Shown: piece by piece, positions 19,895 to 38,295 of the stretch
Position numbering within the stretch: position 1 is the stretch's first letter
Layout of the letters: every line of letters starts with the position of its first letter
Virus record (IMG/VR): IMGVR_UViG_3300030328_001509
Location: 1-47,418 of that record
Direction: 5' to 3' (one strand)
Source of the DNA: a virus
Length of the DNA stretch: 47,418 bases
Position numbers and translations under genes: made by a program
The notes under the pieces: model-generated
What the model saw: the letters and a program-made list of their open reading frames with translations, nothing else
What the model was told of the DNA's origin: nothing
The model's database searches: none

Positions 19895-19908
19895 AAAGGA
19901 GAAATAAT

Positions 19909-20358: not shown

Positions 20359-20380
20359 TTTAATAATAAAAATATAGAAA

Positions 20381-20428: not shown

Positions 20429-20481
20429 GTAAAACTCAATGATGGACCGAAGGCAGCCTAATACCTTTAACATAATCGGTT

Positions 20482-20637: not shown

Positions 20638-20659
20638 TAATAAACAATAAGGAGGTCTT

Positions 20660-21089: not shown

Positions 21090-21337
21090 AAAGTAGAAAT
21101 AACATAACATTAAATGATGATGGTAGAATAGACGCTTCTATAAGAATAGATGTATATTATTCTTTTGACGAAGAAACTGGATATCATCTAGATACTGATA
21201 GTATAACAGCAGAGTTTGAAGAAAGATTATCTGAAATAGAAGATGATATATCAAATCTAAATCACGAACGTGATGACCATTTGAGAACAAAACACATGGA
21301 GTTTCCTGAAAGAGAAACTAATGGTGTTGAATTATGA
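21086..21337 (+). CDS. Unknown acidic protein (83 aa)
   Basis: An 83-residue protein starting MKSRNNITLNDDGRIDASIRIDVYYSFDEETGYHLDTDSITAEFEE, strand-rich at the N-terminus, then a helical RLSEIEDDISNLNHERDDHLRTKHMEFPERE. Its ATGA overlaps the preceding stop by 4 bases, and the following gene starts in its stop (ATGA). No known motif; coupled translation with its neighbours is likely. Confidence 0.55.
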   Translation: MKSRNNITLNDDGRIDASIRIDVYYSFDEETGYHLDTDSITAEFEERLSEIEDDISNLNHERDDHLRTKHMEFPERETNGVEL

Positions 21338-21501
21338 ACAAAGTAACTGACAAAGAATGTATGGATGCAATAGAGTATTTCTGGTGTATGGATATGTTAA
21401 ATAATGGTATGAATAGCGATGAAAGATTTTATTGCAAAATACTAATTAAAAAAGTTGCTGAATCATTAAATCTTATATTGGAGGAAAACAATGGAAAATA
21501 A
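21334..21501 (+). CDS. Small unknown protein (55 aa)
   Basis: A 55-codon frame (MNKVTDKECMDAIEYFWCMDMLNNGMNSDERFYCKILIKKVAESLNLILEENNGK) starting in the ATGA overlap with the preceding gene and ending 11 bases inside the next gene. Three cysteines and many methionines are unusual. Its position between two clearly coding genes and lack of stops support it. The GGAGG for the next gene is inside its 3' end. No family is recognised. Confidence 0.55.
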   Translation: MNKVTDKECMDAIEYFWCMDMLNNGMNSDERFYCKILIKKVAESLNLILEENNGK

Positions 21502-21880
21502 TACAAGAATAATAAAGAATATACAAAACACTTTAAAAATGGTTCGTGAACAGCTTGATTCTGAAAATGCAATACCAAAAAAAGCAAAATACACATCGTT
21601 GTTAGTAGATGATATTGCACAACGATTAGATATTGGTGCTGAAAAATATGGTATGCAAGTACCAATAGAAGAATCAGATGGAAGAATATTTACACAAGAA
21701 GCATATGAAGAATTATGTGATGCTATTGTGTATTTATCTTCTATAGGATTAAATCTAATCAGTAAAGCAAAAGATGATGACGAGCGTTATCACGCACATA
21801 TGATGGGTAATATATTGTTTAACACTTGTTATCAAACGATTAAATATATGGAGTTGATATATGAAAAAGAAACGATATAG
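21491..21880 (+). CDS. MazG-like / dNTP pyrophosphohydrolase-like protein (129 aa)
   Basis: The central part RLDIGAEKYGMQVPIEESDGRIFTQEAYEELCDAIVYLSSIGLNLI (residues 45-90) resembles all-alpha NTP pyrophosphohydrolases of phages. E70, E73/E74 and D77 sit in the EAYEELCDA pattern, which in this family coordinates magnesium. The family hydrolyses (d)NTPs to the monophosphate plus pyrophosphate, for example dGTP/dATP or signalling nucleotides such as ppGpp. Length 129 fits. A GGAGG site precedes the ATG. No exact substrate can be deduced; confidence is moderate because the family is divergent. Confidence 0.5.
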   Translation: MENNTRIIKNIQNTLKMVREQLDSENAIPKKAKYTSLLVDDIAQRLDIGAEKYGMQVPIEESDGRIFTQEAYEELCDAIVYLSSIGLNLISKAKDDDERYHAHMMGNILFNTCYQTIKYMELIYEKETI

Positions 21881-22112
21881 AAAAGATGAATTACAATTAC
21901 TTGCAAAGCAATTTGTAATGAAAAGAATAGAAGGGTTTGAGATAGAAGAACAACGTAAATATTATCTTGAACCTAAATTAGTAGATGAATGGTCGTACTA
22001 TGTATATTGTACCTGGAGAGAAAATACTATGATAAGAGGTTGGGACTTAAGATATCTTGATGACACACCCCTTGGTATGCCTGCAGTTATGGATAAACGT
22101 AGGTATGAATAG
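21861..22112 (+). CDS. Unknown basic protein (83 aa)
   Basis: A basic 83-residue protein (MKKKRYRKDELQLLAKQFVMKRIEGFEIEEQRKYYLEPKLVDEWSYYVYCTWRENTMIRGWDLRYLDDTPLGMPAVMDKRRYE) overlapping the MazG-like gene by 20 bases. An N-terminal basic helix is followed by a mixed strand-helix half with a WSYYVYCTW aromatic stretch. Family unknown. It precedes the hairpin upstream of the annealing-protein gene. Confidence 0.6.
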   Translation: MKKKRYRKDELQLLAKQFVMKRIEGFEIEEQRKYYLEPKLVDEWSYYVYCTWRENTMIRGWDLRYLDDTPLGMPAVMDKRRYE

Positions 22113-22120
22113 ATAAAGTA

Positions 22121-22161
22121 ATTGGATTAGTGAGTTATTATATGTAACTTACTAGTCCAAT
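22121..22161 (+). promoter_or_regulatory. 17-bp hairpin in leader of annealing-protein gene
   Basis: ATTGGATTAGTGAGTTA (22121-22137) pairs with TAACTTACTAGTCCAAT (22145-22161): 17 continuous pairs with two wobbles, 7-base loop. No U-tract follows (it runs into AATAATAAAA), so it is not a normal terminator. The AAGGAG site and ATG (22190) lie just 3', matching the layout of the other early-block RNA elements. It could be an RNase III-type processing site or a stabiliser. Confidence 0.6.
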
Positions 22162-22189
22162 AATAATAAAAATATAATAAGGAGATTAT

Positions 22190-22756
22190 ATGAAATTTAA
22201 AGGTAGAGAATATACCGAAGTAAAAGATAGACTTATCGCATTCGCAGATGAGTTTCCACAAGCATCAATACAGACAGAACTAATTAGTGTAAGTCAAGTT
22301 ATTGATACACCTACAGGAGAAACCTGTAATGAATATGTTGTTAAAGCAACAGTAATTCCAAATCCAATACAAGAACCAGAATGGGTTTATATTGGTCACG
22401 CAGCTGAACGTGATAACACAGGATTTGTTAATAAAACATCAGCATTAGAAAATGGTGAAACATCAGCAGTAGGTCGTGCATTAGCATTTGCAGGATTTGG
22501 TGGTGATTTTGCTATTGCTAGTAAAGAAGAAGTAGATAATGCTAAAGCTAAACAAAAACAAATTAACCCTACTATCAAATCATTAGAGGCGATGGATAAG
22601 GCAGCAAGATTAGCTAATGAAGCAAAGAAACTTCCAGAAGAAGATTACTTGCGTTATAAACAAAAACGTCAAGCTGGATTCTTTGATACAAAACTTAAAG
22701 TAAGTCAAAGTACAGAATACTTTGAATCGTTAACGAAGAAAAAAGGAGCTAAGTAA
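22190..22756 (+). CDS. ERF-like single-strand annealing protein (188 aa)
   Basis: The segment GFVNKTSALENGETSAVGRALAFAGFGGDFAIASKEEVDNAKAKQKQ (residues 84-130) matches the ENxETSAVGRAL core of ERF/Sak-type single-strand annealing recombinases. The N-terminal strand-rich half (YTEVKDRLIAFADEFPQASIQTELISVSQVID) fits the family. The protein would bind ssDNA and anneal complementary strands during replication and recombination. Context supports this: SSB follows directly and primase-helicase is two genes on. Length 188 is near the family range. Good AAGGAG site before the ATG. Confidence 0.75.
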   Translation: MKFKGREYTEVKDRLIAFADEFPQASIQTELISVSQVIDTPTGETCNEYVVKATVIPNPIQEPEWVYIGHAAERDNTGFVNKTSALENGETSAVGRALAFAGFGGDFAIASKEEVDNAKAKQKQINPTIKSLEAMDKAARLANEAKKLPEEDYLRYKQKRQAGFFDTKLKVSQSTEYFESLTKKKGAK

Positions 22757-23296
22757 ATGGCTATAACTGGAACAAAAGTGAAAACCAACACTTCCAATAA
22801 AAATTGGTTTGTAAATCAATGTCGTATTGTTGAAGCAGAACAAATTGATTCACAATACAACGACTGTAGTATTAGATTAAAACTAGAAGATAAAGACAAT
22901 GGATATAATTACACTACATTTATCAATCAGAACTTTGAAAAAGATGTGAATGGTATTGTAACTGGAATGGCATTTCCAGAAGATTTAAACACTCTTTATC
23001 TTGCGTCTGGAAAAGATATAAATGTATCTGATGTAGGCGAAGTCAATGTTGATGTATTAATTGATGGTGAAGTTGCTGTTATAAATTATGCAGCTAATGG
23101 TAAATACAAAAGAGCTACATGGGGTGTAGTATCTAATCCTAATGATACAGATGAGTTAGAAAAGAAATTTATGGCTCAGATAGCAAAAGGATATCCTAAA
23201 AACTATCAAAACCCACAAGAAACAATGGTTGAAGAAATGCTTGGTAATAGAGAACCAGCAAAGAAAACTGAAACTGTTGATGACCTTCCTTTCTAA
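22757..23296 (+). CDS. Single-stranded DNA-binding protein (179 aa)
   Basis: The protein (179 residues) starts 0 bases after the preceding TAA. Its body is OB-fold-like (RLKLEDKDNGYNYTTFINQNF; KDINVSDVGEVNVDVLIDGEVAVINYAANGKYKRATW). It ends in the acidic tip ETVDDLPF, the typical SSB C-terminal tail that contacts replication partners. It would coat ssDNA for the helicase and annealing protein. Its stop overlaps the next ATG (TAATG). An ERF-SSB-helicase order is typical of a phage replication cassette. Confidence 0.75.
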   Translation: MAITGTKVKTNTSNKNWFVNQCRIVEAEQIDSQYNDCSIRLKLEDKDNGYNYTTFINQNFEKDVNGIVTGMAFPEDLNTLYLASGKDINVSDVGEVNVDVLIDGEVAVINYAANGKYKRATWGVVSNPNDTDELEKKFMAQIAKGYPKNYQNPQETMVEEMLGNREPAKKTETVDDLPF

Positions 23297-23556
23297 TGAC
23301 TGCAGAAGGTATAATATTAAGATGGATTGACAGTAGAGCTAATTCTTCTGACCCTTGGTTTGCTTCCTATGATTTGGAAGCTGAAGTACCAGTATACGGA
23401 AGATTAGCTCATCAAAAAGTACATACCCCAAGTACTTATTCTAGGGCGTTTAGAAAAATTCGTGAAAGTAATACTTTAATGCGTTTAGGTCTAGAATTAG
23501 AAGAAACTGTTATCCCAACAACAAAGGTTAAAGGATGGAAAATAAAGAGACTATAA
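23296..23556 (+). CDS. Small protein before primase-helicase (86 aa)
   Basis: An 86-residue protein starting in the TAATG overlap with ssb. RLAHQKVHTPSTYSRAFRKIRESNTLMRLGLELEETVIPTTKVKGWKIKRL resembles a winged-helix: a helix-turn-helix like TPSTYSRAFRKIRE and a following wing. DNA binding is therefore plausible. It overlaps the helicase gene by 22 bases. It may be a replication accessory or helicase loader; no family match is certain. Confidence 0.55.
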   Translation: MTAEGIILRWIDSRANSSDPWFASYDLEAEVPVYGRLAHQKVHTPSTYSRAFRKIRESNTLMRLGLELEETVIPTTKVKGWKIKRL

Positions 23557-25322
23557 TTGAAATTATCAATGGTAGTGTCTCTAATAGAAATCGTATAGGT
23601 ACCATCGATGAATTTAATAAGTTAGTTAAAAGTAATGCGTGGAATGGTGAGATGTATCGCAGCTATTATAGCTTTGATGAAACACTAAGTCAACACATGG
23701 AAGTTAACAGAACAGTTAAAGGATTCGATGGTTTAACCTATTTAGATTCTATTATATTAGATGTAGACAAAGGCAATATTGCCGATGATGCATTCCAACC
23801 TTATCTGTTGCAATGTCTAGAAGAAATTACAGATTTAGGCATTGACAAATCTCACGTGAATATATGGTTTAGTGGTAATGGATATCATGTAGAACTATTA
23901 AATGTATTTGGCTTTCAACCTAGTAGATTATTACACGAAAAAGTAAAACTTACTATGAAAGAACATTTATCATTTGCAGATAGTATATTTGATAAAACAC
24001 GTATCATTAGAGCACCATGGAGTTTAAACAAAAAGACAGGACTATATAAAGTGTTTATTCCATATAGTCTTATCTGGAATCTGAAGTATGATGATGTTAA
24101 AAACATGGCTACAGATTATAAATCATATAAACACTGGAAAGAAGATGGTTGGTACGACACATTAAATGTTGATAAAGAAGTAGAACCGTACTTACAGAAC
24201 TTAATTGTTTCTACATCACAAGCAGTTAGCACTGGTGGATACAAAAGTAAAGATACTACGTCAGTAGTTACTTGTATGCAACACGCTTTCAATGAAGGAC
24301 CAATAGAAGGACAACGTAATATGAAAATGATGCGTATGTCTAGCACCTACAAAAGAGCAGGTGTTCCTTATGTAGTTGCCTTAAATGGTATGCTGCAATG
24401 GTCTAATGGTACTATGGATGATGAAGAAATAATTAGAACTGTAAGTAATGTATTTGATGGTAATTATCAATATGGCTGCAATGATGTAATTATGTCTGAA
24501 TATTGCGACCCAAAGTGTATTCATTTCAAAAGAAAAGATTATACGTTGGATATCAAGAATGTAGAAGATATGACTAAATCATTAGTAGAATATTTGAAAA
24601 ATGATATTACCAAAAAGTCAATTAATATGGCTGATATATTTAACTGCCAAGACTATATTATAAAACCAGGGGAATTAGTTGTATTTTCTGGTGATACTGG
24701 TATGGGTAAATCTGCATTTGTACAAAATGTAGTAGTAGGAGCACTTAAAGATACATTGTTCTTATCATTAGAGATGAATGAATTTCTAACATTTAGAAGA
24801 TTTGTTCAAATAGCTAATAAGAAAACTGAAGGATGGGTAATAGACCAAGTAACGTCTAATCCAGACATATCGTTTGAAGAACAATTAGGTCATATACAAG
24901 TAATGACAATAGCACCAGAAATAGAAGCTATTAAGAAGGTGATTGCTACGCATGAACCTAACATCTTAGTAGTAGATACTACTGATGAGGTGCACGTTGA
25001 TAGGGTAGAGTCTGAAATACAAAGACAAAACATTATCATTGGTGCATTAAAAGAAATGGCACAGAAACATAATATAATTATTATAGCTGTGCATCACGTT
25101 AACAAGATATCTGCAGCAGGTAACACCATAGCATTGCATTCATTGAAAGGTAGTACTAATGTTGTACAGAAAGCAGATAAAGTAATTATGGTTAAAGGTA
25201 ATCGTGATGAAAAAGCTAGAGTTATAGCTAGTGAGAAATCAAGAGATGATGGCAAATTTGAAATGACAGCACTCTTTGATTACGAAACGATGACTTTTAG
25301 GCAAGTTGATTGGAGTCAATAA
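23535..25322 (+). CDS. Fused archaeo-eukaryotic-type primase and DnaB-like helicase (595 aa)
   Basis: This 595-residue protein combines two domains. Residues 66-180 look like an archaeo-eukaryotic primase (AEP) core: LDVDKG with D76 and D78, SGNGYHVE at 113-120 (H118), and TRIIRAPWSLNKKTGLYKVFIP at 155-176, the three motifs of the AEP fold. Cysteines C247, C315, C324 and C328 follow in a helical region like a metal or iron-sulphur site of PriL-type domains. Residues 380-585 are a RecA-like helicase: Walker A GDTGMGKS (386-393), SLEMN, Walker B ILVVDTTDE (D481), AVHHVNK and the LKGS...KADKVIMV and EKSRDD motifs of DnaB-type helicases. It would prime and unwind at the fork. No TOPRIM is seen. 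Confidence 0.85.
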   Translation: MENKETIIEIINGSVSNRNRIGTIDEFNKLVKSNAWNGEMYRSYYSFDETLSQHMEVNRTVKGFDGLTYLDSIILDVDKGNIADDAFQPYLLQCLEEITDLGIDKSHVNIWFSGNGYHVELLNVFGFQPSRLLHEKVKLTMKEHLSFADSIFDKTRIIRAPWSLNKKTGLYKVFIPYSLIWNLKYDDVKNMATDYKSYKHWKEDGWYDTLNVDKEVEPYLQNLIVSTSQAVSTGGYKSKDTTSVVTCMQHAFNEGPIEGQRNMKMMRMSSTYKRAGVPYVVALNGMLQWSNGTMDDEEIIRTVSNVFDGNYQYGCNDVIMSEYCDPKCIHFKRKDYTLDIKNVEDMTKSLVEYLKNDITKKSINMADIFNCQDYIIKPGELVVFSGDTGMGKSAFVQNVVVGALKDTLFLSLEMNEFLTFRRFVQIANKKTEGWVIDQVTSNPDISFEEQLGHIQVMTIAPEIEAIKKVIATHEPNILVVDTTDEVHVDRVESEIQRQNIIIGALKEMAQKHNIIIIAVHHVNKISAAGNTIALHSLKGSTNVVQKADKVIMVKGNRDEKARVIASEKSRDDGKFEMTALFDYETMTFRQVDWSQ

Positions 25323-25504
25323 TGATAAGATTGGACACAGTGAATAACTCTAATATAATAATGCAACGTATTACATTATTATATTTATTCCAATTTGGTG
25401 TATCATTCCAAGAAGAGGAAGGACAGCATTTTTGTATTATATTTGCTGTAGGACCTATTGAGTTAAACTTTACATTGAGGTTATGGAATGGCACACAGAA
25501 ATAA
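25322..25504 (+). CDS. Small protein downstream of primase-helicase (60 aa)
   Basis: Starts in the TAATG overlap with the helicase stop (25322) and overlaps the following nuclease by 17 bases, so it is probably co-translated. MIRLDTVNNSNIIMQRITLLYLFQFGVSFQEEEGQHFCIIFAVGPIELNFTLRLWNGTQK is strand-rich and mildly hydrophobic. An upstream in-frame ATG at 25310 lies inside the helicase and is less likely. No family is recognised. Confidence 0.5.
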   Translation: MIRLDTVNNSNIIMQRITLLYLFQFGVSFQEEEGQHFCIIFAVGPIELNFTLRLWNGTQK

Positions 25505-25820
25505 AATACGTGGTAACAACCTAGAACGTGAGATTGTTAACGCAGCTAAAGAGGAAGGGCTCTCTGCAAAGAGGGCCTATGCCTCTGATGGTAGGTCACT
25601 AGGATTTAGTGAAGTCGTTGATTGTCTTGTTGAGGATTGGACCATACAAGCAAAACGTAGAAAGAAAATAGCACAATGGTTATACCCAGATTACCATGGC
25701 GATGATGTAGATGCGGTGGTAACAAGGATGGATAGGAAAGAAGCGTTAATTATAATGCCTCTTGGAAAATGGATAAAAATGATGAAGGAGATAAAAGATG
25801 GCGAAAGTAAAACTAAGTAA
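25488..25820 (+). CDS. PD-(D/E)XK nuclease, resolvase-like (110 aa)
   Basis: This 110-residue protein has the PD-(D/E)XK layout of archaeal-type Holliday-junction resolvases: NNLEREIVNAAKEEG with E13/E15, KRAYASDGRSLGFSEVVDCLVEDW with D45, and IQAKRRKK with Q54 and K56. The DGRSLGF...VDxLV...Q-A-K order matches that family. It would resolve branched DNA before packaging or assist replication. The last part (MDRKEALIIMPLGKWIKMMKEI) is a helix. Overlaps its neighbours by 17 and 23 bases. The position after the replicative helicase supports the call. Confidence 0.7.
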   Translation: MAHRNKIRGNNLEREIVNAAKEEGLSAKRAYASDGRSLGFSEVVDCLVEDWTIQAKRRKKIAQWLYPDYHGDDVDAVVTRMDRKEALIIMPLGKWIKMMKEIKDGESKTK

Positions 25821-26040
25821 AGAAGAAATAGAAATGGTTTTAAAAGCTTTGGCTAATATAATAACTATAAAACATAGGTATAGTGGAATTAATGTAGATT
25901 TAGATACAGATGTTTTAAGACAAGTATTACATAAGCTAGAAAATCCTTTTATGGTAGATTATAATAAACAAAATAAAATTATAAGAGGATTAGAAGATAA
26001 ACAACCCAGAATAGGGAATTGTGAGTGTTGCGATGACTAA
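25798..26040 (+). CDS. Unknown small protein with terminal cysteines (80 aa)
   Basis: An 80-residue helical protein (MAKVKLSKEEIEMVLKALANIITIKHRYSGINVDLDTDVLRQVLHKLENPF...) ending GNCECCDD. It overlaps the resolvase-like gene by 23 bases and shares its opening helix with the next small protein (KEEIEMVLKAL here, KEELLIMRSAL there), suggesting a tandem duplication. Terminal C-x-C-C could bind a metal or form disulphides. No function is known. Confidence 0.6.
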   Translation: MAKVKLSKEEIEMVLKALANIITIKHRYSGINVDLDTDVLRQVLHKLENPFMVDYNKQNKIIRGLEDKQPRIGNCECCDD

Positions 26041-26176
26041 ATTTACTAAAGAAGAGTTATTGATAATGAGGTCTGCATTGCTTAATTTCAAGAAAGCACC
26101 TTGGGTATCACCAGGTGAGCATAAGATTATTAAGAAAATGTTAGAGAAAATTCACGAACTATTTGAAGAAGAATAA
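26033..26176 (+). CDS. Small helical protein, possible paralogue of preceding gene (47 aa)
   Basis: A 47-codon frame (MTKFTKEELLIMRSALLNFKKAPWVSPGEHKIIKKMLEKIHELFEEE) starting 8 bases inside the end of the previous gene. The layout, K-E-E-L...L then a P/G-containing turn then a second helix ending in acids, parallels the preceding 80-residue protein. It is followed by the structured leader of groES. No family is known; the similarity suggests small paralogues. Confidence 0.55.
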   Translation: MTKFTKEELLIMRSALLNFKKAPWVSPGEHKIIKKMLEKIHELFEEE

Positions 26177-26180
26177 TAAT

Positions 26181-26307
26181 TATTCCCCCTCAACTATTAA
26201 CACGCTTTAAAAGGAAGCGGGTGGTGAAAATCCATTCTTACCTTTAAAGCAAATACATCTTGGTTGGCACTGAATGTATATGATATATTAACAATAGAGG
26301 GGGAATA
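26181..26307 (+). promoter_or_regulatory. Multibranch RNA leader before groES gene
   Basis: TATTCCCCCTC (26181-26191) pairs perfectly with GAGGGGGAATA (26297-26307), 11 bp. Inside, GCTTTAAAAGG (26204-26214) pairs with CCTTTAAAGC (26241-26250), 10 bp with one bulged A, and ATACAT pairs with ATGTAT (26253-26258 with 26274-26279). This makes a three-way junction directly after the preceding stop. The AGTAAGGAG site and ATG (26321) follow 1 base after. It may regulate GroES production or process the message. No class I know fits. Confidence 0.6.
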
Positions 26308-26320
26308 GTAAGGAGACAAT

Positions 26321-26569
26321 ATGAAACCATTAAGAAATGAAGTTGTAATTAAGCAGCAATCTAAAGACAATAAAACAGAAGCTGGTATTATATTAACAAC
26401 CGATGAAGTAATAAAAGAAAATGTTGGTGTAGTTACTGCAAAAGGTAAAGATGCCGATGAAGTAGAAATAGGAGATAAAGTATTGTTTGGTCCAGGATTT
26501 GTAGTCCAAGACATAGATAAGCAAGAAGTTTTGTTTATGAGTCAAGACAATATACTTTGTGTTCTGTAA
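26321..26569 (+). CDS. groES: GroES-like co-chaperonin (82 aa)
   Basis: This 82-residue protein matches the Cpn10 family: MKPLRNEVVIKQQSKDNKTEAGIILTTDE has the N-terminal strand and the mobile loop (TEAGI near residues 21-25) that contacts GroEL, and GVVTAKGKDADEVEIGDKVLFGPG (about 46-67) is the conserved GVV.. GDxVLF core. It is slightly shorter than the usual 95-97. No GroEL gene is seen, so it would work with host GroEL to help fold phage proteins such as capsid, as phage T4 gp31 and RB49 CocO do. A structured leader precedes it. Confidence 0.9.
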   Translation: MKPLRNEVVIKQQSKDNKTEAGIILTTDEVIKENVGVVTAKGKDADEVEIGDKVLFGPGFVVQDIDKQEVLFMSQDNILCVL

Positions 26570-26946
26570 TGGATTATAATTCTGATTTCCAGTATGATTT
26601 AAAATTTGGTCAAGAAGGAGAAACTGAAATAGCTGCATTATTAAATGATTGCAATGTTGAAGTTAAACGTGACAGACAAACTCAAAAGACTGGTAATGTA
26701 TACATAGAATACGAATCAAGAGGTAAAGCATCTGGTATTGCAACTACTAAAGCTGATAAATGGGCTTATATATTGCAAGATGGTTGTATTTTAATTGTAA
26801 ACACAGAATTATTAAAAAAAGCATTGCGATATCTAATTAAAGCTAGACTTTGTGTTAAAGGTATGCCTGGCGGTGATAACAATACATCGTTAGGTGTGCT
26901 AGTAAGTGTAGAAAGATTAATGGAAGGAATAAGGAGTGTCAAATGA
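26569..26946 (+). CDS. PD-(D/E)XK endonuclease-like protein (125 aa)
   Basis: The start is taken at 26569 (TAATG overlap with groES) rather than the in-frame ATG at 26557 inside groES. The protein has GQEGETEIAALLNDCNVEVKRDRQTQKTGNVYIEYESRGKASGIATTKADKW: E17/E20, E31-V-K33, and TGN.[FY]IEY..RG..SGI.T...W, the pattern of a phage PD-(D/E)XK endonuclease family. The C-terminal half is helical and basic. It is the second nuclease of the block. It may degrade host DNA or process replicative intermediates. Confidence 0.7.
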   Translation: MDYNSDFQYDLKFGQEGETEIAALLNDCNVEVKRDRQTQKTGNVYIEYESRGKASGIATTKADKWAYILQDGCILIVNTELLKKALRYLIKARLCVKGMPGGDNNTSLGVLVSVERLMEGIRSVK

Positions 26947-27183: not shown

Positions 27184-30100
27184 TTAATCGTCATTTTCAT
27201 TCTGTTTTCTAAGTTCTGCTAGTATATCCTCTAATTCTTCCTGTTTAAAGTAATCTCTAGAGTATGCATGAACTTTATGAAGCGGCAATCCTGTTAAAAA
27301 GTCTGGAGCCATAGCTGGAGACTTGATAGTTCTATAAATATCTTTACTTAATCTACCAAATGGGAAATATGTATGAAATTGATAATTCCAGAATTTATCA
27401 TAATTACCATTAATCATTGCAGTTAATGGTGGTAATATAAATCTACTTACTGGTGGTGTAACGATAGCTAATGGTGCTAGTGATGGATGAGGGTATTGAC
27501 TAAAGAATGCTCTATCTTTCATTTCTTCATCACCAAATATTAATTCAGAAGTATCTTGCATCCAAGACATAGGTGGTGATAAAGCATATTCAAATATAGA
27601 TGATGCAAATATATTAGCCATAGCTAATGCAAATACATCTGCTGTAAATTGATTATTAGCTCTTTTTTTCTTTACTTCGTTGTTCCATATTTTTTGATTA
27701 GCACCTTGACTATATATGTCTATTCTTCTACCAATACTATTCCAGGCGTAAGGATGGAAACGTGTCATAATTCTACCTAGATTAGTGTTGGAAAAATTAG
27801 GTCTTTGAGTTGCGTGATAAACAAACTGTGATGCTTTTACAGATTTTCTAGCAATGTTTAATATAATAGGGTCATTAAAAGCCATGTCTTTTGTAATTTC
27901 TGGTCCTAGTATTTGTCTTGCATTAATAATAGAAGCTAATGCAGTTCTGGTTCTTAATATCATTTCAGATTTTTTCATAAAAAATGAACCAACATCAGTC
28001 AAACCTTCTACAACACCAAGTTCTTTAATAGCTTCTCCCATTGTTCTTGAATGTAATGCAGCTGCTTCTTTATCACTCATATTTAAATAGTTATTACCTT
28101 TAGCGTCTTTTTCTCCAAGTATTTTTCTAACTATTAAATCTCTAATACGACCTCTATCTACTTGTGCTTTCTTTTGACTGTAATAACCTTCAGTAACAAG
28201 ACCATCTTCAATAAAACCTTCTCTAAATAACCAGTCTATAATATCATTATAACTTTGTATTTCAACTTTTTTTCTTCTACCTTGCGCATCTACAGTGTAA
28301 TAGAAAGAACCTTTTAAGAAAACATTGTTTAATAACCATGCTTCGTTGTTAGCTTTTCTAAATGCAGACCATCCTTCGTCTACAATGGTATTTGAGAAAC
28401 CTCCATAAAAATTAGTAATAGCCGATTTAGGGTGTGATAATAAAGATACCATTTCAAATTTACCTTCTAATTCACTCCAAGCTTTTGCTTTACGTACTAA
28501 CCAATATCTTCTAGCTGTTCCACTTTTAGGTGCATCTTTTAATATATTACCACCAAAAGCATCATTAATTCTTTCAAAAAATCCTACTACAGATTCATCA
28601 CTAAATACATCATAAGCAGTATTAAATCTACCTATTTTGTTTATATTCTCTGGTTGTAATATTTCTTTCAAATTGTTTTTTCTAATATTTAATATAGCAT
28701 TTGATTTTTTTGCAGAGTCTGTTATTGCATCTACTTGTGCTTTTTGTGCTTTTGTTAAACCAAAATTGACATCAACTAAATCTAAAAATCTTAAATCTGG
28801 ATTACTTAAATGACGTTTCTCTTTCATTTTTTTTCTATCTAAACCTGAGTCTATATAAGCTTGAATTAACATAGCTTCACCTTTTTTAATACCATGAAGG
28901 TTAAAATTACGCAATGAAGGAAATCCATTGTTATTACTAAATACATCTAATATGTATGAATGCCATTGTTTATTTAAATCCATTCCTTCTTTATCTTTAC
29001 CAAAAGGATTTTTTTCTAAAAATTGGTCTGCAATAAGTTTTAATTTTATGTTTTGTACTTGTCTTACCCAGCTGCTATATGTTGCTTGTAAATAACGTTC
29101 TGTAGCACTAAAATCTGTTCTCCAACCTGGAAGTTCATCTACGCTTCTAGAGTTCACAATGTTTCTATTGCTATTATCTACTTGTATTTCAGGTCTAGTA
29201 TTTAATAAACGTAAACTAGACTCTTCACCTATAGAGAGTTCAAGGTCAACACCAGTTATCATTTCTTTGTCATAAAATTCTTTATAAAATGTTTTTGTTA
29301 ATGCTATAGCAACATCTTTACTAATTAAACCTGCTTCATATTCTATTCTAATACCGCTTGGTAATTTTTCAACTACAAATTTTTCACCATTTTTTCCTAT
29401 TACTTCATTTATTTTTGATTCTATTTTCTTTTTAATATGTTCTTTATTTACATCTCTTAAACCTTGGAAATCCATACCTCCAATATGTGGAACATAACTA
29501 TCTACTTCTCCAGTTTTTTCGTTTATAAATCTACCTAAACCTATTCTAGTATTTATATTATGTAATTCATTAATTCTTTTTAAAACTGTTTGTATGCTTT
29601 CTGCTTTACCATTTACAGTAATTCTAGGTTTTTCAAATTCTTTTTTACTCAATTCTTTATTAAAGTTTACATCAGGAAAATGTGTTTTTAACATATCTTT
29701 TACTAATAAATTATGTTCTATAAAACGTGCATCTGCTACGGAAAATGTTTCTCTTAATATTTGTTCTACATTACCTGGACCTAAATCTAAAATACCTTTA
29801 AAAATAGCATCTATTTTTTTGACATCTGACATAATACCATTTTTGTCGAACAATAAACTTTTTAATTCATTAACTTCTGCTTTAATTATATTGGAAGTAT
29901 TATTTTCTACTTTACTCAAATCAACACGTTCATTTTCTGGTATATTATACTTATCTACTTCAAAACCTGCTTGTTTTAATTTTCTACGTATTCTTGGACC
30001 CTTACTTACAATTACATCATTGTAAACTTTAGTCATAATTTCTGTATATCTTTGATTCATTAAATCTAAAACTTCGTATGGTCCTACTTTTTTTGTTTTA

Positions 30101-33100
30101 CCAGGATTTGCTGGGTCTTTAATTTCAAATTCTACTTTTTCTTTTACAAGTGCATCTATTAATTTCTTTTTTGCTAACCACAATTTTTTAATATTAGCTT
30201 GTGCGTCAACAGATTTTCTTAAATATATAGGTCCTTTACCATCAGAGTATTCACGTCTAAACTGCATACCGCTATATAATAAATCAAAATGTGTACCAAT
30301 TAATTTACCGCTATCTAAAGTTGCCCAATCAAAATTTTCTTTTAACAAAATATCTTTAGTCCATCTATTAAATGTGTTTTGTATCTGATGGAATGTATAT
30401 TGTATTTCATTACCATATCCTAAAGTAGTAGTAGGAACTTTACCAGATTTAAATGTTATATTACCATTTTTATCTTTTACAATATTATCCACTCTTTTAA
30501 ATGTACTATCTTTTTCAAATTCTGTAGCTCCAGCTATGTATTCTTCTGTATAACCTTTACTTAATATATGGTCTCTACCTGCAGGTCCTCTTCTTACTTT
30601 AGGGTCATATAAAAAGCTTTTAATCCAACCTGGTGTAGTAACTGCCTCTATATAATTCATCAATGATTGCAGCTCTTTTATTGTAATCTCTTCAAAAGGT
30701 TTACCTGTTACAACACCACCTTGAAAAGACTCATACAATGGTTCTATGTAATCTTTAATACCAGGTCTGCTTTCTAATAAACTGTGAAATTCTAGCATTG
30801 TAACAATAGATTCTTCAGTTATATTAGGGTCGTTAGCTCTTTTTAATAAAGCATCTTCAATATTAAACTCTTTAATTTTACCATAATCTGACTTTTTAAT
30901 TTGTATTTCTTCAGATAACGTAGGTTTTTCTATTTCTTTTTCTATTTCTTTAACTGCTGGTTCTTCTTTTTTATCTATTTCTTCTTGACGTTCTCTTGAC
31001 TTTACAATAAAACTATCTAATTCATAATGAAATCTTCTGGTGCTTTCTTTGCTTATACCAGGACTTTGAAATATTTGGTCAAATTGTCCTTGTACATCAT
31101 TTAAAATACCTTTTTGTACTCTGTATAAATTATCTAAATGTGGACCATCTCCGTATTTTTTATATTCTGTTTTAATTTTTTCAGATATTTCTCTTAACCT
31201 TTTCAACTCTACGTTTAGTTCTACTTTTTTTCTACCTTTACCAGATATGTCCATTTTCGTAAATGATTCTGGCACTACATTTCCAAGCAATGCAAAGTCA
31301 TAAAACAATTCTAACTCTTTTACTATGTCTTCTTTTAATTTAGAGTTCTTATAACCAAAAGATTCTACATAACGTACAAAACCTTGTTTTTGTGCTGTAA
31401 TATATTTAGTAACATTTAAAGGATTGACTTCTTCTCCGTTGTTAGCTGTATTAGTATTCATTTTATTTAGCAACAAATATGATTGTCTATTTTGTATTTT
31501 TAATTCATATGCTCTGTTTGTTATTTCTTTTAATATATCAATACCTTTTCTACCTTGCAATTCTGGTATTTGATTTAATATCTCTAAAACTCTTTCTCCT
31601 TGTTTTACCATTAGGGTTACACCGATTATTTCATTTAATCTTGCTTCTAATTTTGTAGGGTCTGTAGATAATATATCTTTTTCATTTTGCGATAAACTTG
31701 TAGAATAATAATCTATTAGCTTCAAACTTTTTAAAATAGGACTATCTTTAATATTTTTTTGAGCACCCTCCATAATACCTATTAAATTTTTTACATCAGC
31801 ATAATTAGTATAACTAAATGGTGATAAATCAAACTCTTCATACTTAGCTAAATTTCTAGCTATTTGTGTATAATAATTATTAATAGGGGTTCCTTCATTG
31901 TTTTTGTCAAAATAATTTAAAAAGTCTCTAGACACTTGTACAATTTCAGTAAGGTCTGCTTTATCGTTTAACATTCTGTGAAATTTTCTAAAAGCTTGCA
32001 ATCCAGAAGCTCCATATTTTTTGTTAAACATAGAATAAAAAGATAAATTGTAAGAACCCACTGCTTCACCTTCACGCATTATATCGAAATCTACACCTAA
32101 TTCTATTTTATTTTTAGGTCCATATATTTGCTCAGAGTTTGGCAATTCTGTAAGGTTGGGATTTCTATACTCAAAAAAATCGTTAAATATTTTTGTCAAA
32201 CTATCCCTTGGTTTTAATATGTCTTTATAACCTGCACTATCAGCGTGTATGTTAGCACCAACAATAGATATTTGTTTTAACCTTTGAAATCCAGGGTTAT
32301 TTTCTTTTAATATAATTTCTGCACCATCTCCTAAATCTATTTTACCACCATTTTCTTTAGCCATTTGCATAAAAATTTGCAGTTGAGTAGTACCATTTAT
32401 GATTTGACCCATGCCGCTTTTACCTTCGTAAGATGTTTCACCTATTCCTAGTCGTGTTCTAGTGCTAAACATTTTTGATATATCAGAAGGAGCTTCTTCA
32501 GCACCAAAATATCTAATAGCAATATCTAAACTACCATCTTCGTCTTTTAATGGGTATAGCTCTCCATTTTCTTTTTCAAATTCACGTTGTATTTTTTTGT
32601 TAGCAAAAGCATCTTTAATATTTTTTGGTAATGATTGATAGCCGACAACCTTATCTCCGTCTTTGTCCATACCACCTTTCATCATATCATTGTATTCATT
32701 TGAATAATAACCGTGACTTCCTCCGTCTTCAACAAATCCACCAAACTCTAAAATTCTAATTGCTCCATTACTAGAACTAGGTGAACGCATAATAGCATAA
32801 ACTAACGCATCTTTAACTTCTCTATAACCTTCTGCTCCAGGAGCTAATTTCCCACCAGGTTTAACTAAATCCCATGCTTCTTCTAATGTCATTTCTTCTT
32901 TTGTAATTTCACCAGTTTCTTTATTAATTCTTTCTATTAATACAGGGTCAGTTTTAGCACCAGAACCTCTTTTAAATTCTTTTGTACGTATACCACCTTC
33001 TGCCATTTGTTGTTGTGAAAAAGGATATGCAACAGCATGAAACCCTGTTTCTACGTTAAGTCTAGTACTTCTGTATATTATATAGTTACCTAAAATTCTA

Positions 33101-36100
33101 TTTAATAAAGGTTTATTACCTTCTCTCATTAAATAAGATATAGCATAATCTGCACGTTCAGCACCTATCATAAAATTATTTGTCTTAGTAAGTTCTGCCA
33201 TATCTGCTAATACATAAGTTTCTTTTAAAGCAAAATCTTCAGATTGACTTTTTCTAAATAATTGTCTTGCTGCCCACCTACCAGAAGGAGAATCTAAATT
33301 TTCTTGTATTTCTTTAACAATAACTGTTGTATCTAGTTTGTCTATATCTATATCAGACAAATCTCTTCTGGCAAATTTATCAGAATCTTTAGCAAGTTCT
33401 ATAAATTTTTCTGTCAATTCTTTGTCACCTACTAAATTTTCAGTACGTAATGCAGCCATAGAATCAAAAAACTGTTCATTGAATATTGGTCTACCTGCTT
33501 CATCTAATTCTAAGCTAGTGTTTTTATCTATAAATTGTTTGTATAGTTTTATATTACGAGTTTTTACTTTTTCTTTTACATCTACGTTTATACCTATTTC
33601 ATCTGGTCTTACTTTGAATATAGTTTCTTTACCATTAGACTTATATTTACCAGAAGCTACATCGTATGTCATTTCACCTGATTGTATGTTACCTCTTTGC
33701 TTTGCAGCAGAATCATACATAAGCATATGTCTGTTATTTTCTACTAAATAATCATTCATTTTATTATCTGCTCTATATAAACCTGCTTTTAATTTTACAT
33801 GACCAGCACCATTTCTAGGCGATGTATGACCTACAGGTTTCATAAAAAAACTAAAGGAATCTATGTCATATATTTTACGCATTCTATCAAAGACATCTTG
33901 TCTAACATATATAACTCCGTCTAATGCAGACTTTTCACCCTTGGGGTTAAATGGGGCAGGGTCTTCCATAATAGACATATTAAAAAATCCTTCTTTTTCT
34001 ACTTTGTCAAGAGGAATACCAAGTAATTCAGGTATATCTTTTATTGGTATAGGTAAATCTATACCCTGTGATAAAGGTTGATATTTATTAATTTTTGCAG
34101 CACTTTGTGGAAAATTATTTTTTGGATTTAAATAAGTTCTTAAAGCTTTTTCTACTTTCGCAAAATCGTTTAATTCATTTCTAGTAATTAAACCATTGTC
34201 TAGCAATTCGTAAATTGCATTAGCAGTAGTTTCTTTATACTCTATTTTATTCGTTTTATCAGAATCTGGTGCATATTCTTTTATTACTTTGTCTAAAGTT
34301 TTAATAAATGTATTAATATCGTAATTTTTATTAAAAGGTAATTTCTGTATAACAATCATACCAGAATCTTTGTTAGCACTATGTATGTATTGATTAGAAT
34401 CTTCCATAAGTTTTTTATTCATATCCATAAAAAATTCTACACCTTCAGCACCAAAGGGTTCTATCAATTCTTTTTTAGTAGGTTGTTCTTCTATTCTTTC
34501 TACTCTACCTGTTTCAGGATTAATTTCTTCTTTAACAATAGGTTCTTTATCTAAATCAGGAACTTCTCTTTCTATGTATCTTAAAACAACTCTAACTCTA
34601 TCGTCTCCATACATTTTATTTATTTTATTAGGAGCTTCTTTAACTAGTATTAAATTTCCTCTAGAGTCAGACTCTCTACCGCCTGGTCCTATTTCTTGTA
34701 CAATGTCATTAACATCTAACATAATATTGTTACCTAACCTGTAAGTAACTTTTTTCATAAAAAATTGTTTAAATCCTTTAGGTATGTCTACTTCTGGATA
34801 AATTTCTTTAAATCCTTTTACAAAACCTTCATAGTTATTTAAATTTTCATTTATTTTTGTAGTTAAATCTCTAGCTAAATCTTCGTATTGTAATGAAGGA
34901 TATTTTTCTATAATTTGATTATATAAAGTTTTTGTAATAGTATCTTTAACAATGTTGTCATTTAAATCTTGATTTTTAATTTCTCTTATAATTGTATCAA
35001 ATCCATCTAATACAGGTCTGTTTGCTTCATCTACATTTTCTTGTTTAACTTGTTCTGAGTCTTTAATTTCTTTTTCTATACGTTCTTTAAACGAAGCTAA
35101 TTTAACTTCTACTTCTTCTTTGTTTAAATTTAAATATTTAAAATCTTCTTTTAACGATTCTGATAATGCTTTATGTTGTTCTGCGGTTATATTTTCTAAA
35201 TCAATATTTTCTTCTTGTGCTTTGCGTACATACTCTACACCCATCAAATCGTATGCACCTTGTATTTTATCTTTTTGCTGAACATACAGCTCGTTAAAAT
35301 GTCTATCTATGTAATCTTTAGATTCTTTTGGTAGTTCTTTATATTCTTTTGTTTTTAATAAACCTTCTTTTGATTTTGCTAAATTTGCATTACCTGGTAT
35401 AGGGTTTGTAGCTAGGAATTTAGTAGCTTTATTTTCTGCTACTGACCTTCCACTAGCACCAAAAAAGAATCCTAATGAATACTCATATATTTGTTCTGGC
35501 AAAGGCATCTGGTGGTAACTAGCTAAACCACCTGTGTAAGCAGAACCTAAGACACCTCTTGCAAATAAATTTTGTACAGCTTCTTTTTCAGTAGGTCTTT
35601 GAATCATTTTACGAATAGCTTCTTCACCTAATTTTTTTGTGTTAGGATTAGCTAATAGTTTACCAATATTAACATACTCTGATATACCACCAAATACAGC
35701 ACCTGCCATAGCACCATGCATAGCAGACTCTACCATACCTGCAGGACCTTCTTTTCTAGCACTAACACCCAATGCTATACCAAGATGTATACCATCATGT
35801 GCAACTTTTCTAAATCGTTCGTTTCCTAATAAACCTTTATTCAAAAATCCTGATGCTAATAAACCATTTTTATCTAAAGATTTTTGTGCATTATCTATTA
35901 CAAAATCAGATATACGCATTGGTACTGACCTTAAAAAGAATTGTTTTTCACCTGTTAAAGGGTTAATACTTTCTTTACGTAAATCAAAATTACCAATCTT
36001 TAATTTTTCAGCAATCTGTTGTGTTTTTTTAGTATATGCTTTAGTACCACGGTCTATAAGTTTTTTAGCCTGCATAGCACCGCCTTCTTTAATAGCAGTG

Positions 36101-36513
36101 TATCCTACGCCTTTACGAATTTGTCTTCTTACTATAGAAGCGGGTACAGATGCACCCATTGTCATAACACCAGCAATAACGTCAGGTGCTAAACCTATTA
36201 AGTGTCCAACTTTATTTGCTATAGATTCTTTAGAAGTATCTGCGTCATCTGCCCATCCAAAAGTAGTAAAACCTTCAGCAAATCCAGATACAAATTGATT
36301 TAAAACAGAACCAAGGGATTCTTCTGCTGCAACCATGTCTCTATTAAATGGAACATCAGCAGCTTTCATAACACGTTCTATATAATCTGTGTCATTCGCA
36401 TTAAAGCTGGTAGGATTGTTTTGATATGCTAAATACAAACGATTTACATAATCGTTTTGACTTATCGTTCCTCCCTTAACGAGCTCATTTAAATAACGTA
36501 ATTGGTCGTTCAT
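27184..36513 (-). CDS. Giant virion protein with DxDGD RNA-polymerase-like core (3109 aa)
   Basis: This 3109-residue protein is the largest gene of the window, placed directly after the ejection-type proteins. The N-terminus is hydrophobic and glycine-rich (APDVIAGVMTMGASVPASIVRR; VSARKEGPAGMVESAMHGAMAGAVFG). The centre carries a two-barrel RNA polymerase signature: MLMYDSAAKQRG near residue 930-941 (K938), then R1243-S-P1245, then MDKDGDKVVG with D1283, D1285, D1287 (DxDGD, magnesium triad). The R-to-D spacing of 40 residues is close to that in multisubunit beta' subunits. After it come LGIGE (1355-1359) and ANIHADSAGYKD (1420-1431), like the downstream motifs of crAss-like phage polymerases. 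The C-terminal 500 residues are hydrophobic and resemble large ejected proteins. I infer an injected virion RNA polymerase; flanking domains are unassigned. Confidence 0.7.
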   Translation of the reverse strand: MNDQLRYLNELVKGGTISQNDYVNRLYLAYQNNPTSFNANDTDYIERVMKAADVPFNRDMVAAEESLGSVLNQFVSGFAEGFTTFGWADDADTSKESIANKVGHLIGLAPDVIAGVMTMGASVPASIVRRQIRKGVGYTAIKEGGAMQAKKLIDRGTKAYTKKTQQIAEKLKIGNFDLRKESINPLTGEKQFFLRSVPMRISDFVIDNAQKSLDKNGLLASGFLNKGLLGNERFRKVAHDGIHLGIALGVSARKEGPAGMVESAMHGAMAGAVFGGISEYVNIGKLLANPNTKKLGEEAIRKMIQRPTEKEAVQNLFARGVLGSAYTGGLASYHQMPLPEQIYEYSLGFFFGASGRSVAENKATKFLATNPIPGNANLAKSKEGLLKTKEYKELPKESKDYIDRHFNELYVQQKDKIQGAYDLMGVEYVRKAQEENIDLENITAEQHKALSESLKEDFKYLNLNKEEVEVKLASFKERIEKEIKDSEQVKQENVDEANRPVLDGFDTIIREIKNQDLNDNIVKDTITKTLYNQIIEKYPSLQYEDLARDLTTKINENLNNYEGFVKGFKEIYPEVDIPKGFKQFFMKKVTYRLGNNIMLDVNDIVQEIGPGGRESDSRGNLILVKEAPNKINKMYGDDRVRVVLRYIEREVPDLDKEPIVKEEINPETGRVERIEEQPTKKELIEPFGAEGVEFFMDMNKKLMEDSNQYIHSANKDSGMIVIQKLPFNKNYDINTFIKTLDKVIKEYAPDSDKTNKIEYKETTANAIYELLDNGLITRNELNDFAKVEKALRTYLNPKNNFPQSAAKINKYQPLSQGIDLPIPIKDIPELLGIPLDKVEKEGFFNMSIMEDPAPFNPKGEKSALDGVIYVRQDVFDRMRKIYDIDSFSFFMKPVGHTSPRNGAGHVKLKAGLYRADNKMNDYLVENNRHMLMYDSAAKQRGNIQSGEMTYDVASGKYKSNGKETIFKVRPDEIGINVDVKEKVKTRNIKLYKQFIDKNTSLELDEAGRPIFNEQFFDSMAALRTENLVGDKELTEKFIELAKDSDKFARRDLSDIDIDKLDTTVIVKEIQENLDSPSGRWAARQLFRKSQSEDFALKETYVLADMAELTKTNNFMIGAERADYAISYLMREGNKPLLNRILGNYIIYRSTRLNVETGFHAVAYPFSQQQMAEGGIRTKEFKRGSGAKTDPVLIERINKETGEITKEEMTLEEAWDLVKPGGKLAPGAEGYREVKDALVYAIMRSPSSSNGAIRILEFGGFVEDGGSHGYYSNEYNDMMKGGMDKDGDKVVGYQSLPKNIKDAFANKKIQREFEKENGELYPLKDEDGSLDIAIRYFGAEEAPSDISKMFSTRTRLGIGETSYEGKSGMGQIINGTTQLQIFMQMAKENGGKIDLGDGAEIILKENNPGFQRLKQISIVGANIHADSAGYKDILKPRDSLTKIFNDFFEYRNPNLTELPNSEQIYGPKNKIELGVDFDIMREGEAVGSYNLSFYSMFNKKYGASGLQAFRKFHRMLNDKADLTEIVQVSRDFLNYFDKNNEGTPINNYYTQIARNLAKYEEFDLSPFSYTNYADVKNLIGIMEGAQKNIKDSPILKSLKLIDYYSTSLSQNEKDILSTDPTKLEARLNEIIGVTLMVKQGERVLEILNQIPELQGRKGIDILKEITNRAYELKIQNRQSYLLLNKMNTNTANNGEEVNPLNVTKYITAQKQGFVRYVESFGYKNSKLKEDIVKELELFYDFALLGNVVPESFTKMDISGKGRKKVELNVELKRLREISEKIKTEYKKYGDGPHLDNLYRVQKGILNDVQGQFDQIFQSPGISKESTRRFHYELDSFIVKSRERQEEIDKKEEPAVKEIEKEIEKPTLSEEIQIKKSDYGKIKEFNIEDALLKRANDPNITEESIVTMLEFHSLLESRPGIKDYIEPLYESFQGGVVTGKPFEEITIKELQSLMNYIEAVTTPGWIKSFLYDPKVRRGPAGRDHILSKGYTEEYIAGATEFEKDSTFKRVDNIVKDKNGNITFKSGKVPTTTLGYGNEIQYTFHQIQNTFNRWTKDILLKENFDWATLDSGKLIGTHFDLLYSGMQFRREYSDGKGPIYLRKSVDAQANIKKLWLAKKKLIDALVKEKVEFEIKDPANPGKTKKVGPYEVLDLMNQRYTEIMTKVYNDVIVSKGPRIRRKLKQAGFEVDKYNIPENERVDLSKVENNTSNIIKAEVNELKSLLFDKNGIMSDVKKIDAIFKGILDLGPGNVEQILRETFSVADARFIEHNLLVKDMLKTHFPDVNFNKELSKKEFEKPRITVNGKAESIQTVLKRINELHNINTRIGLGRFINEKTGEVDSYVPHIGGMDFQGLRDVNKEHIKKKIESKINEVIGKNGEKFVVEKLPSGIRIEYEAGLISKDVAIALTKTFYKEFYDKEMITGVDLELSIGEESSLRLLNTRPEIQVDNSNRNIVNSRSVDELPGWRTDFSATERYLQATYSSWVRQVQNIKLKLIADQFLEKNPFGKDKEGMDLNKQWHSYILDVFSNNNGFPSLRNFNLHGIKKGEAMLIQAYIDSGLDRKKMKEKRHLSNPDLRFLDLVDVNFGLTKAQKAQVDAITDSAKKSNAILNIRKNNLKEILQPENINKIGRFNTAYDVFSDESVVGFFERINDAFGGNILKDAPKSGTARRYWLVRKAKAWSELEGKFEMVSLLSHPKSAITNFYGGFSNTIVDEGWSAFRKANNEAWLLNNVFLKGSFYYTVDAQGRRKKVEIQSYNDIIDWLFREGFIEDGLVTEGYYSQKKAQVDRGRIRDLIVRKILGEKDAKGNNYLNMSDKEAAALHSRTMGEAIKELGVVEGLTDVGSFFMKKSEMILRTRTALASIINARQILGPEITKDMAFNDPIILNIARKSVKASQFVYHATQRPNFSNTNLGRIMTRFHPYAWNSIGRRIDIYSQGANQKIWNNEVKKKRANNQFTADVFALAMANIFASSIFEYALSPPMSWMQDTSELIFGDEEMKDRAFFSQYPHPSLAPLAIVTPPVSRFILPPLTAMINGNYDKFWNYQFHTYFPFGRLSKDIYRTIKSPAMAPDFLTGLPLHKVHAYSRDYFKQEELEDILAELRKQNENDD

Positions 36514-37670
36514 TAATATACTGTATCGTCAATTACGTTTTTATCTCTACTAGGATGTGTTAAATCTAATGCATTCAACTCATCTATAACATCAGATTTT
36601 TGATTTTTCTGTCCATATACTTGGTCTCTTGTAAGTTCACCTATAACATTTGTTTGGTAATAATTGTCAAAATTAACTATTACTTCATTTTGTGCTTTGT
36701 ATGTTTTTAGATTGTCTTCCGTACCATATTGTTCTATTAAACTTAGCCATTCATCAGTAGGTTTGATAAGTTTTAATTTACCCTCTATTTTTTCTTTAGT
36801 AGCTAAAGCATTAGGCATATTTAAATTTAACCCCGCAGATATTTCGGATGCAGGACCTTGTAAATTTACAATCAAACCTCCTCTATTTTTTAACCATTCA
36901 TCTATAGCTTTTTGTCTTGTATCTAATAGTGACATACCTGCAACGTCTTCATAACCTTTACCAACAGCTCCTTGGATTTCAGCTGTCGTTTCCAAAGCAT
37001 CTGCAACAGCTGGTATTCCTAACGCTGCAGTTAATAAATACCCACCTGTTCTAGCAGCTGGATGTGGAGCCTTTGTTGCTGCACTTGCAAGCCACTTAAG
37101 AGATAAAGCAGCAGCACCTGCCGTTACAGTACCTTGTAGAATGTCTCCTGCTTCGTAATCAAATATTTTTTCTCCACCTAAACCTTCAAAATCTTGTAAA
37201 TCTGTAATACTCAACTCTCCGTTTTGCTCTTTTAACAATATCAGGTCAGCTGCGTTTCTAACTTTTTCTTCTGCTCTTTCATTTCTACTTAAATTTTCCA
37301 TAAAAATAGTACCATCCGATGTCAATCTAAATGATTCTGATTGTCCCAGTGCGTCAATTTTAGATTTAGCTATATCCACTTTAGCTTGAAACTCTAAATC
37401 GTCTATTTGTTGGTTACGTTTTTCTTCTCTTAACGCTTTCATATCTGGGTCTGTTGCCATAAATTTATTTTGTGCTTGATATAATGCTAACGCTGAATTA
37501 TTACTTTCTATAGCCATTGCTTTTTCATGTTGAAACTTTGCTTCAATCATAGATTTTTCAAAAGCCATAGTTTCTAATCTGTCTTGAGCTTCTCTATAAG
37601 GTTCATTAAATTCTTTTAACGCACCTAAAATTTCAGAAAGATTCATTATAGTTTCTCTACTTCTACTCAT
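36513..37670 (-). CDS. Ejection / internal virion protein (385 aa)
   Basis: A 385-residue protein whose TAA overlaps the giant gene's ATG (TAATG). The start has GGAGG 8 bases before the ATG. The N-terminal third is helical (DRLETMAFEKSMIEAKFQHEKAMAIESNNSALALYQAQNKF); the middle has a glycine/alanine-rich hydrophobic segment (QGTVTAGAAALSLKWLASAATK; GGYLLTAALGIPAVADAL) that could insert into a membrane. Such a helical-hydrophobic profile next to the transglycosylase and giant protein is typical of podovirus ejection proteins that form a channel in the host envelope. No named family is certain. Confidence 0.65.
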   Translation of the reverse strand: MSRSRETIMNLSEILGALKEFNEPYREAQDRLETMAFEKSMIEAKFQHEKAMAIESNNSALALYQAQNKFMATDPDMKALREEKRNQQIDDLEFQAKVDIAKSKIDALGQSESFRLTSDGTIFMENLSRNERAEEKVRNAADLILLKEQNGELSITDLQDFEGLGGEKIFDYEAGDILQGTVTAGAAALSLKWLASAATKAPHPAARTGGYLLTAALGIPAVADALETTAEIQGAVGKGYEDVAGMSLLDTRQKAIDEWLKNRGGLIVNLQGPASEISAGLNLNMPNALATKEKIEGKLKLIKPTDEWLSLIEQYGTEDNLKTYKAQNEVIVNFDNYYQTNVIGELTRDQVYGQKNQKSDVIDELNALDLTHPSRDKNVIDDTVY

Positions 37671-37671
37671 T

Positions 37672-38295
37672 TTAGTATCCTCCGTACATAGACAATAAAG
37701 ATTGTCCGTAATTTGATTTTATTCCTTTTTCAGCAGCATATCTGTCTAATTCAAATCCAGCTGACTGTATGTCTCTTACAGCACTAGCTTCTCTCATTTG
37801 CAATCCGAATGCTGACTCTTGTAATTTTAAACCTCTCATTTCTTGTTCACGTTGAAATTGGTTTTGACTTTGGTCCATTAATTGTTGACCAGCTCCACTA
37901 CCTGCTAAATTAGTTCTACCTAAACCACCTAATGCCTGTTGCTCTTGTATACCATATTGGTCGATAGCTCTAGATTGTTCCATGCCTGCAGCTTGATTCA
38001 TAAAACTTCTTTGTTGTGCAAACTCTGCTGCTTGTCCTGATTGAGCACGTTGCAAAGCACCGTATTGTTCGTTTAATAAAATTCTAGCACGTTCTCTTTT
38101 TCTACGTTCACGTTTACGTTTTCTTCTACTTCCAAAAAATCCTGCTAATGCTCCTATACCAATAGCTGCCCATCCCCAACCTGGAATAGCTGCTAATGCT
38201 CCTGCTGCACTACCTCCAGTTGCTGCAGTATTAACTGCTACATTAGTAGCAATATTTGCACCTGTTTGTATAGCTGTGTTTTCACCGTCTCCCAT
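37672..38295 (-). CDS. Internal virion protein with membrane segment (207 aa)
   Basis: A 207-residue protein with a hydrophobic span (SAAGALAAIPGWGWAAIGIGALAGFFG, about residues 29-55), a basic patch RRKRKRERRKRERAR after it, then a glutamine-rich helical half (QYGALQRAQSGQAAEFAQQRSFMNQAAGMEQSRAIDQYGIQEQQALGGLG). This resembles T7 gp14-type ejection proteins in composition. The stop codon lies 1 base before the next ATG. It probably helps form the transenvelope channel for DNA entry, together with the neighbouring proteins. Confidence 0.65.
   Translation of the reverse strand: MGDGENTAIQTGANIATNVAVNTAATGGSAAGALAAIPGWGWAAIGIGALAGFFGSRRKRKRERRKRERARILLNEQYGALQRAQSGQAAEFAQQRSFMNQAAGMEQSRAIDQYGIQEQQALGGLGRTNLAGSGAGQQLMDQSQNQFQREQEMRGLKLQESAFGLQMREASAVRDIQSAGFELDRYAAEKGIKSNYGQSLLSMYGGY

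Follow-up and report, generated by a model that had tools for sequence, protein, structure and literature searches.

The window, by which we mean the whole stretch of DNA analysed here (47,418 nucleotides, IMG/VR record IMGVR_UViG_3300030328_001509), is a genome of about 47 kb from an uncultured phage, and it encodes on its minus strand a giant protein whose open reading frame is complete from ATG to stop (Table 1). The giant gene is the last of a leftward run that also holds tail-type proteins and a metallophosphoesterase of phrog_221; the large terminase, the portal and the major head protein lie on the same strand. A cluster of small genes that points rightward faces it and includes a DnaB-like helicase (23535-25322) with a primase-like N-terminal match. 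An earlier note on this DNA had described the giant as sitting next to ejection proteins; the position of its small neighbours agrees with this, but they match no PHROG.

Table 1. Features of the giant gene and of its surroundings, with window coordinates and the basis of each assignment.
Feature	Position	Strand	Basis
Probable virion RNA polymerase, extended at both the N- and the C-terminus (giant ORF, 3109 aa)	27184..36513	-	ORF, relatives, dN/dS
Conserved N-terminal part, residues 1-400, putative role in carriage or membrane passage	35314..36513	-	
Modelled polymerase region, residues 723-1612	31678..34347	-	AlphaFold2 and Foldseek
Approximate beta-like barrel (DPBB-B), residues 844-989	33547..33984	-	Model strands; limits from predicted secondary structure
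K892, invariant lysine	33838..33840	-	26 of 26 cores
K938, lysine of the earlier note	33700..33702	-	Pattern in relatives; hhalign against crAss polymerases
Approximate beta'-like barrel (DPBB-A), residues 1153-1292	32638..33057	-	Model strands; limits inferred
R1243-S-P1245	32779..32787	-	Both R and P in all 26 cores; RxP also in every aligned crAss polymerase
D1283-K-D-G-D1287, predicted Mg2+-binding triad	32653..32667	-	Invariant; aligned with DFDID of gp66
Candidate bridge helix (37 residues, 1351-1387), carrying GKxxxGxxxN	32353..32463	-	Model helix 629-665
Conserved C-terminal residues 2474-3109, largely helical in a low-confidence model	27187..29094	-	
385-aa protein directly upstream of the giant, possible ejection protein	36513..37670	-	Position only; no PHROG
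207-aa protein, possible ejection protein	37672..38295	-	Position only; no PHROG
Metallophosphoesterase in structural cluster	43638..44405	-	PHROG match (phrog_221)
Large terminase	13095..14579	-	phrog_38, E 1.6e-85; other carriers 61-78%
Portal	10627..12945	-	phrog_156, E 1.5e-65
Major head protein	8285..9724	-	phrog_1328, E 5.3e-30
Rightward cluster, putative early region and likely first template	16125..26946	+	ORF list, helicase match

The same note had proposed a virion RNA polymerase on the basis of K938 (in DSAAKQRG), R1243-S-P1245, D1283-K-D-G-D1287, LGIGE and ANIHADSAGYKD, all of which are indeed found in the giant. When the giant protein is shuffled (20,000 shuffles), DxDGD arises in 5.1% of the sequences, and an RxP placed 30-45 residues ahead of it in 0.17%, so that the motif needed outside evidence. 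Its reality is settled, at the level of sequence, by conservation among relatives. In an alignment of 26 cores, made of the window and 25 relatives that are 17-64% identical to it, D865, G866, K892, G1029, R1243, P1245, F1257, G1259, F1260, G1281, D1283, D1285, G1286, D1287 and Q1293 were invariant in every core. Relatives selected with the pattern GxDxDGDx[VI]xx[FY]Q conserve G1281, the DxDGD residues and Q1293 partly by construction, whereas RxP, F-x-GF, D865-G866 and K892 were not part of that pattern. Moreover, the triad is present in three close homologues from IMG/VR that were found independently of the motif: L002, whose core is 96% identical to that of the window, and L003 and L004 (62-68%). 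K938 seemed variable in the MAFFT alignment owing to a one-residue shift; by eye, the pattern K-P...K-x-G...[S/A]-x-x-K, which includes K909 and K938, is present in the relatives. A regular expression for the three lysines matched 47 of 50 relatives with several matches misplaced, and this count was left unused. LGIGE fared less well, for it is present but not conserved; the conserved element is GKxxxGxxxN just after it, on a predicted helix of 37 residues. The dN/dS ratio against L002 is 0.08 for the whole giant and 0.06 for the core, and the gene is under purifying selection.

The predicted structure points in the same direction. Residues 723-1612 were modelled with AlphaFold2 from the alignment of 26 sequences at a pLDDT of 82.4 and a pTM of 0.80, and the best fold match in the PDB was 6VR4, gp66 of phage phi14:2 (Foldseek E 3.5e-8, TM-score 0.45), followed by QDE-1. 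All 17 Foldseek matches at E<=0.001 were two-barrel polymerases; weaker ones included gp64 of phage P23-45 (about 600 aa, E 0.015) and 8h2m (E 0.07). In a viral library, the top matches were unnamed proteins (A0A516LW39, E 3e-26) and then crAss-like giants, with a phi14:2 structural protein lower in the ranking. In the model, the beta-like barrel holds D865-G866, K892, K909 and K938, and the helix that follows the DxDGD barrel, with its conserved G1364, K1365, G1369 and N1373, is by its position a candidate bridge helix. A comparison of alignments with hhalign agrees with the fold: the window family (A3) and nine crAss-type polymerases (A4), in which three invariant lysines, RxP and DxDxD come in that order, align from K938 opposite the lysine of STVKVG through DxDGD opposite DFDID, a span of 308 columns with E 8.4e-5 and a probability of 60%, while the C-terminal alignment used as a control (A5) gave E 0.48 and a probability of 0.1. 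Because the fold match, the conservation and the profile comparison concur, the presence of a two-double-psi-barrel RNA polymerase in the giant, as the earlier note had predicted, is well supported by model and sequence alike. The proposed limits were also borne out, the polymerase being only the central third of the chain.

Plain searches did not reveal this kinship. No useful match came from Pfam, PHROGs, PDB sequences or INPHARED when the giant or its core was the direct query, and for the giant Pfam and PHROGs returned no polymerase match; no named phage with a sequence-detectable relative of the core was found; and in bacterial and archaeal genomes the DxDGD pattern came with no convincing RxP context among the matches listed. 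In terms of classification, the core is predicted to have what defines the two-barrel class (the overall fold, DxDxD with an upstream RxP, and the lysines of the beta-like barrel), together with the homology beyond the DxDxD region that marks the crAss-like (gp66) family, here distant. The T7-like single-subunit core of the Schitoviridae (N4-like phages) is not what we found, as the significant fold matches are to two-barrel enzymes only, and a scan of the larger proteins of the window and of one relative showed no T7-like or N4-like polymerase, in line with the earlier note.

Related giants are carried by about 58 IMG/VR contigs, as judged by a motif scan. The pattern G-M-D-x-D-G-D-K-V led to giants on further contigs, and a protein search of these records gave significant matches in open frames of 2996-3119 aa. 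The looser pattern given above matched 68 stretches, about 3 being expected by chance as estimated from the pattern probability, and 59 of them, on 58 contigs, encode a giant-type protein with RxP, F-x-GF and G-x-DxDGD; the remaining matches were unrelated proteins or had no readable frame. In some relatives the DxDGD region takes the form GGADFDGDAV. Full-length relatives have 2996-3412 aa, are only 20-25% identical between deep branches, and share conserved stretches near residues 1-350, 800-1430 and 2600-3100. The N-terminal part holds 47 positions invariant among nine divergent giants (within residues 1-399) and a single hydrophobic stretch (105-123). The C-terminal part is the most conserved stretch of the giant; its last 700 residues were modelled at a pLDDT of 61.6 and had no fold match in the PDB. 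The core seems to tolerate insertions. L032 has an AlkB-type 2OG-Fe(II) oxygenase and a weak DUF4326 match inside or beside it, a SLOG-type domain occurs in L091 (phrog_768) and, by sequence, in L061, one member matching cpYpsA, and a phrog_9995 domain follows DxDGD in L040, a similar stretch preceding the first barrel in L003 and L035.

Divergent genomes that carry the giant have their terminase, portal and head protein in common with the window (61-78%, 46-48% and 25-29% identity, respectively). In two of them, G012 and G013, the terminase is 78% identical to that of the window and the polymerase core (L042 and L091) only 22% and 19%, so that, by these sequences, divergence is far more rapid in the polymerase than in the packaging enzyme of the same genomes. 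One contig, IMGVR_UViG_3300030329_002114 (88,986 bases), encodes two different giants (L031 and L032; 3080 and 3031 aa) along with two terminases that are 63% and 61% identical to that of the window; it has the appearance of a chimera or of two linked genomes of ~44.5 kb each.

The closest known counterparts are the crAss virion polymerases and gp66 of phi14:2, whose details we took from the deposited sequence and later papers. Besides the best fold match and the profile match, they share with the window family the conserved lysines, RxP and DxDxD in the same order, and g066, annotated in phi14:2 from virion proteomics, stands likewise at the end of a leftward structural cluster that holds a phrog_221 metallophosphoesterase. 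They differ in that gp66 has DFDID where the window has DxDGD, that phi14:2 has separate large genes (g065, g066 and g067) instead of one chain of 3109 aa, and that its genome is of 100 kb and not about 47 kb. P23-45 offers a second parallel, since in its gp96 a virion two-barrel polymerase and the tail tape measure protein form one fusion, for which a coupling to DNA entry has been suggested (PMC10770324). It too has the two-barrel core within a giant virion protein and a DFDGD motif; however, the phage is long-tailed, the core stands at the N-terminus of a tape measure protein with 5,002 aa, and the fold match of that core to ours (8h2m) is the weak one. N4 gp50 (Schitoviridae, PMC12633501) resembles the giant in architecture, as an ejected protein of about 3,500 aa with the polymerase in its middle third, but that polymerase is a T7-like single-subunit enzyme and not a two-barrel one. 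QDE-1, the RNA interference polymerase, is a single-chain two-barrel enzyme like the core, but cellular and without virion parts. Finally, YonO of the Bacillus subtilis phage SPbeta, which we set beside the window by its description in PMC5467207, is a single-chain relative of multisubunit polymerases, and, at about 100 kDa, no giant.

Taken together, we consider it very probable that the giant is a single-chain, two-barrel, DNA-dependent RNA polymerase that is packaged in the virion and ejected from it. What was established computationally, from models and alignments, is the match in fold and the conservation of the catalytic signature. Packaging in the virion is likely from gene position and analogy, because the place of the gene in phi14:2, the polymerase-associated proteins reported in crassvirus virions (PMC10172136) and the P23-45 fusion are analogous, and since no further phage polymerase turned up in the proteins scanned; the use of DNA as template, the ejection and the early role are what we infer from the nearest known enzymes. 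In the proposed mechanism, the catalytic core would occupy about residues 840-1400, with the beta-like barrel contributing K892, K909 and K938, the beta'-like barrel binding Mg2+ through D1283, D1285 and D1287, and the bridge helix coming next. The conserved N- and C-terminal parts would serve for retention in the particle and for passage through the tail with the DNA. Once inside the cell, the core could start transcribing the rightward early genes with no need to wait for the host polymerase.

A true two-barrel polymerase could instead be left out of the particle and made after infection for the middle or late genes, as P23-45 gp64 is. Two-barrel enzymes outside virions do exist (PMC10770324) and gp64 is among the weak matches of the core model, but gp64 has neither the giant size nor the conserved N- and C-terminal parts, and the giant gene ends a structural cluster as it does in phi14:2, which makes an unpackaged enzyme unlikely. 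We give still less credit, indeed very little, to the idea that the core copies RNA or makes replication primers in the manner of QDE-1 without transcribing the genome: QDE-1 is the second-best fold match and the scan of the window's larger proteins recognised no DNA polymerase, but the enzyme that matches best comes from a phage and is DNA-dependent, and the primase-like match belongs to the helicase. That DxDGD is a calcium-type loop or a chance motif of a structural protein, as its frequency in shuffles and the unrelated proteins with the same pattern that surfaced in our scans could suggest, is barely credible against the two-barrel fold match, the invariant RxP and K892, and the match to the crAss profile.

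If the giant is a packaged polymerase, as we favour, its kind is known; what would be new is a deeply diverged lineage of probable virion polymerases and its layout, with a crAss-type core within one chain of N4 size and a genome of roughly 44-48 kb. We found no description of this lineage and layout in the literature searched, whose coverage was incomplete. Probable packaged two-barrel polymerases would thereby no longer be confined to one long-tailed thermophage and the crAss-like phages (about 90-100 kb) but would include a widespread group of uncultured phages of roughly 44-48 kb for which no close named relative was found. It is also suggested that placing a polymerase centrally within a giant ejected protein arose at least twice, with unrelated polymerases. 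More tentatively, and at somewhat less than even chances, these proteins could form a lineage of their own among giant ejected proteins, one in which DNA-ejection parts and a two-barrel core were united in one chain, convergently with the T7-type giant of N4, and which forms a fast-diverging platform able to take up other enzymes such as the AlkB-type oxygenase and the SLOG-type domains. One molecule would then perform both genome entry and first transcription. The compact core (about 900 residues) could be expressed for the study of how such enzymes start transcription, and the question is raised of why, within one genome, the polymerase should have diverged so much more quickly than the terminase.

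As for the phage itself, its portal and head protein belong to phrog_156 and phrog_1328, whereas those of phi14:2 belong to phrog_6547 and phrog_11589, and because of this difference, which is one of PHROG assignment only, we do not place it in the Crassvirales. Its terminase is about 26% identical to that of the closest named phages among the matches listed. Upstream of the first rightward gene (16125) lies a pair of 30-nt direct repeats (15957-15986 and 16049-16078), 80% identical and 92 bases apart. The stretches searched in relatives did not contain the pair, and as early promoters it makes a weak case, with at least two matches arising in 10 of 100 shuffles. Two further leftward frames deserve mention: a 129-aa ORF (45084-45473) that looks thioredoxin-like (VKVVPTIIILKEGKEV) and whose N-terminus is signal-like, and a 372-aa ORF (46062-47180), matching no PHROG, whose C-terminal half, from FCIHEAVPVNC to FFAGGVLVHS, appears by eye to be of Hint or intein type.
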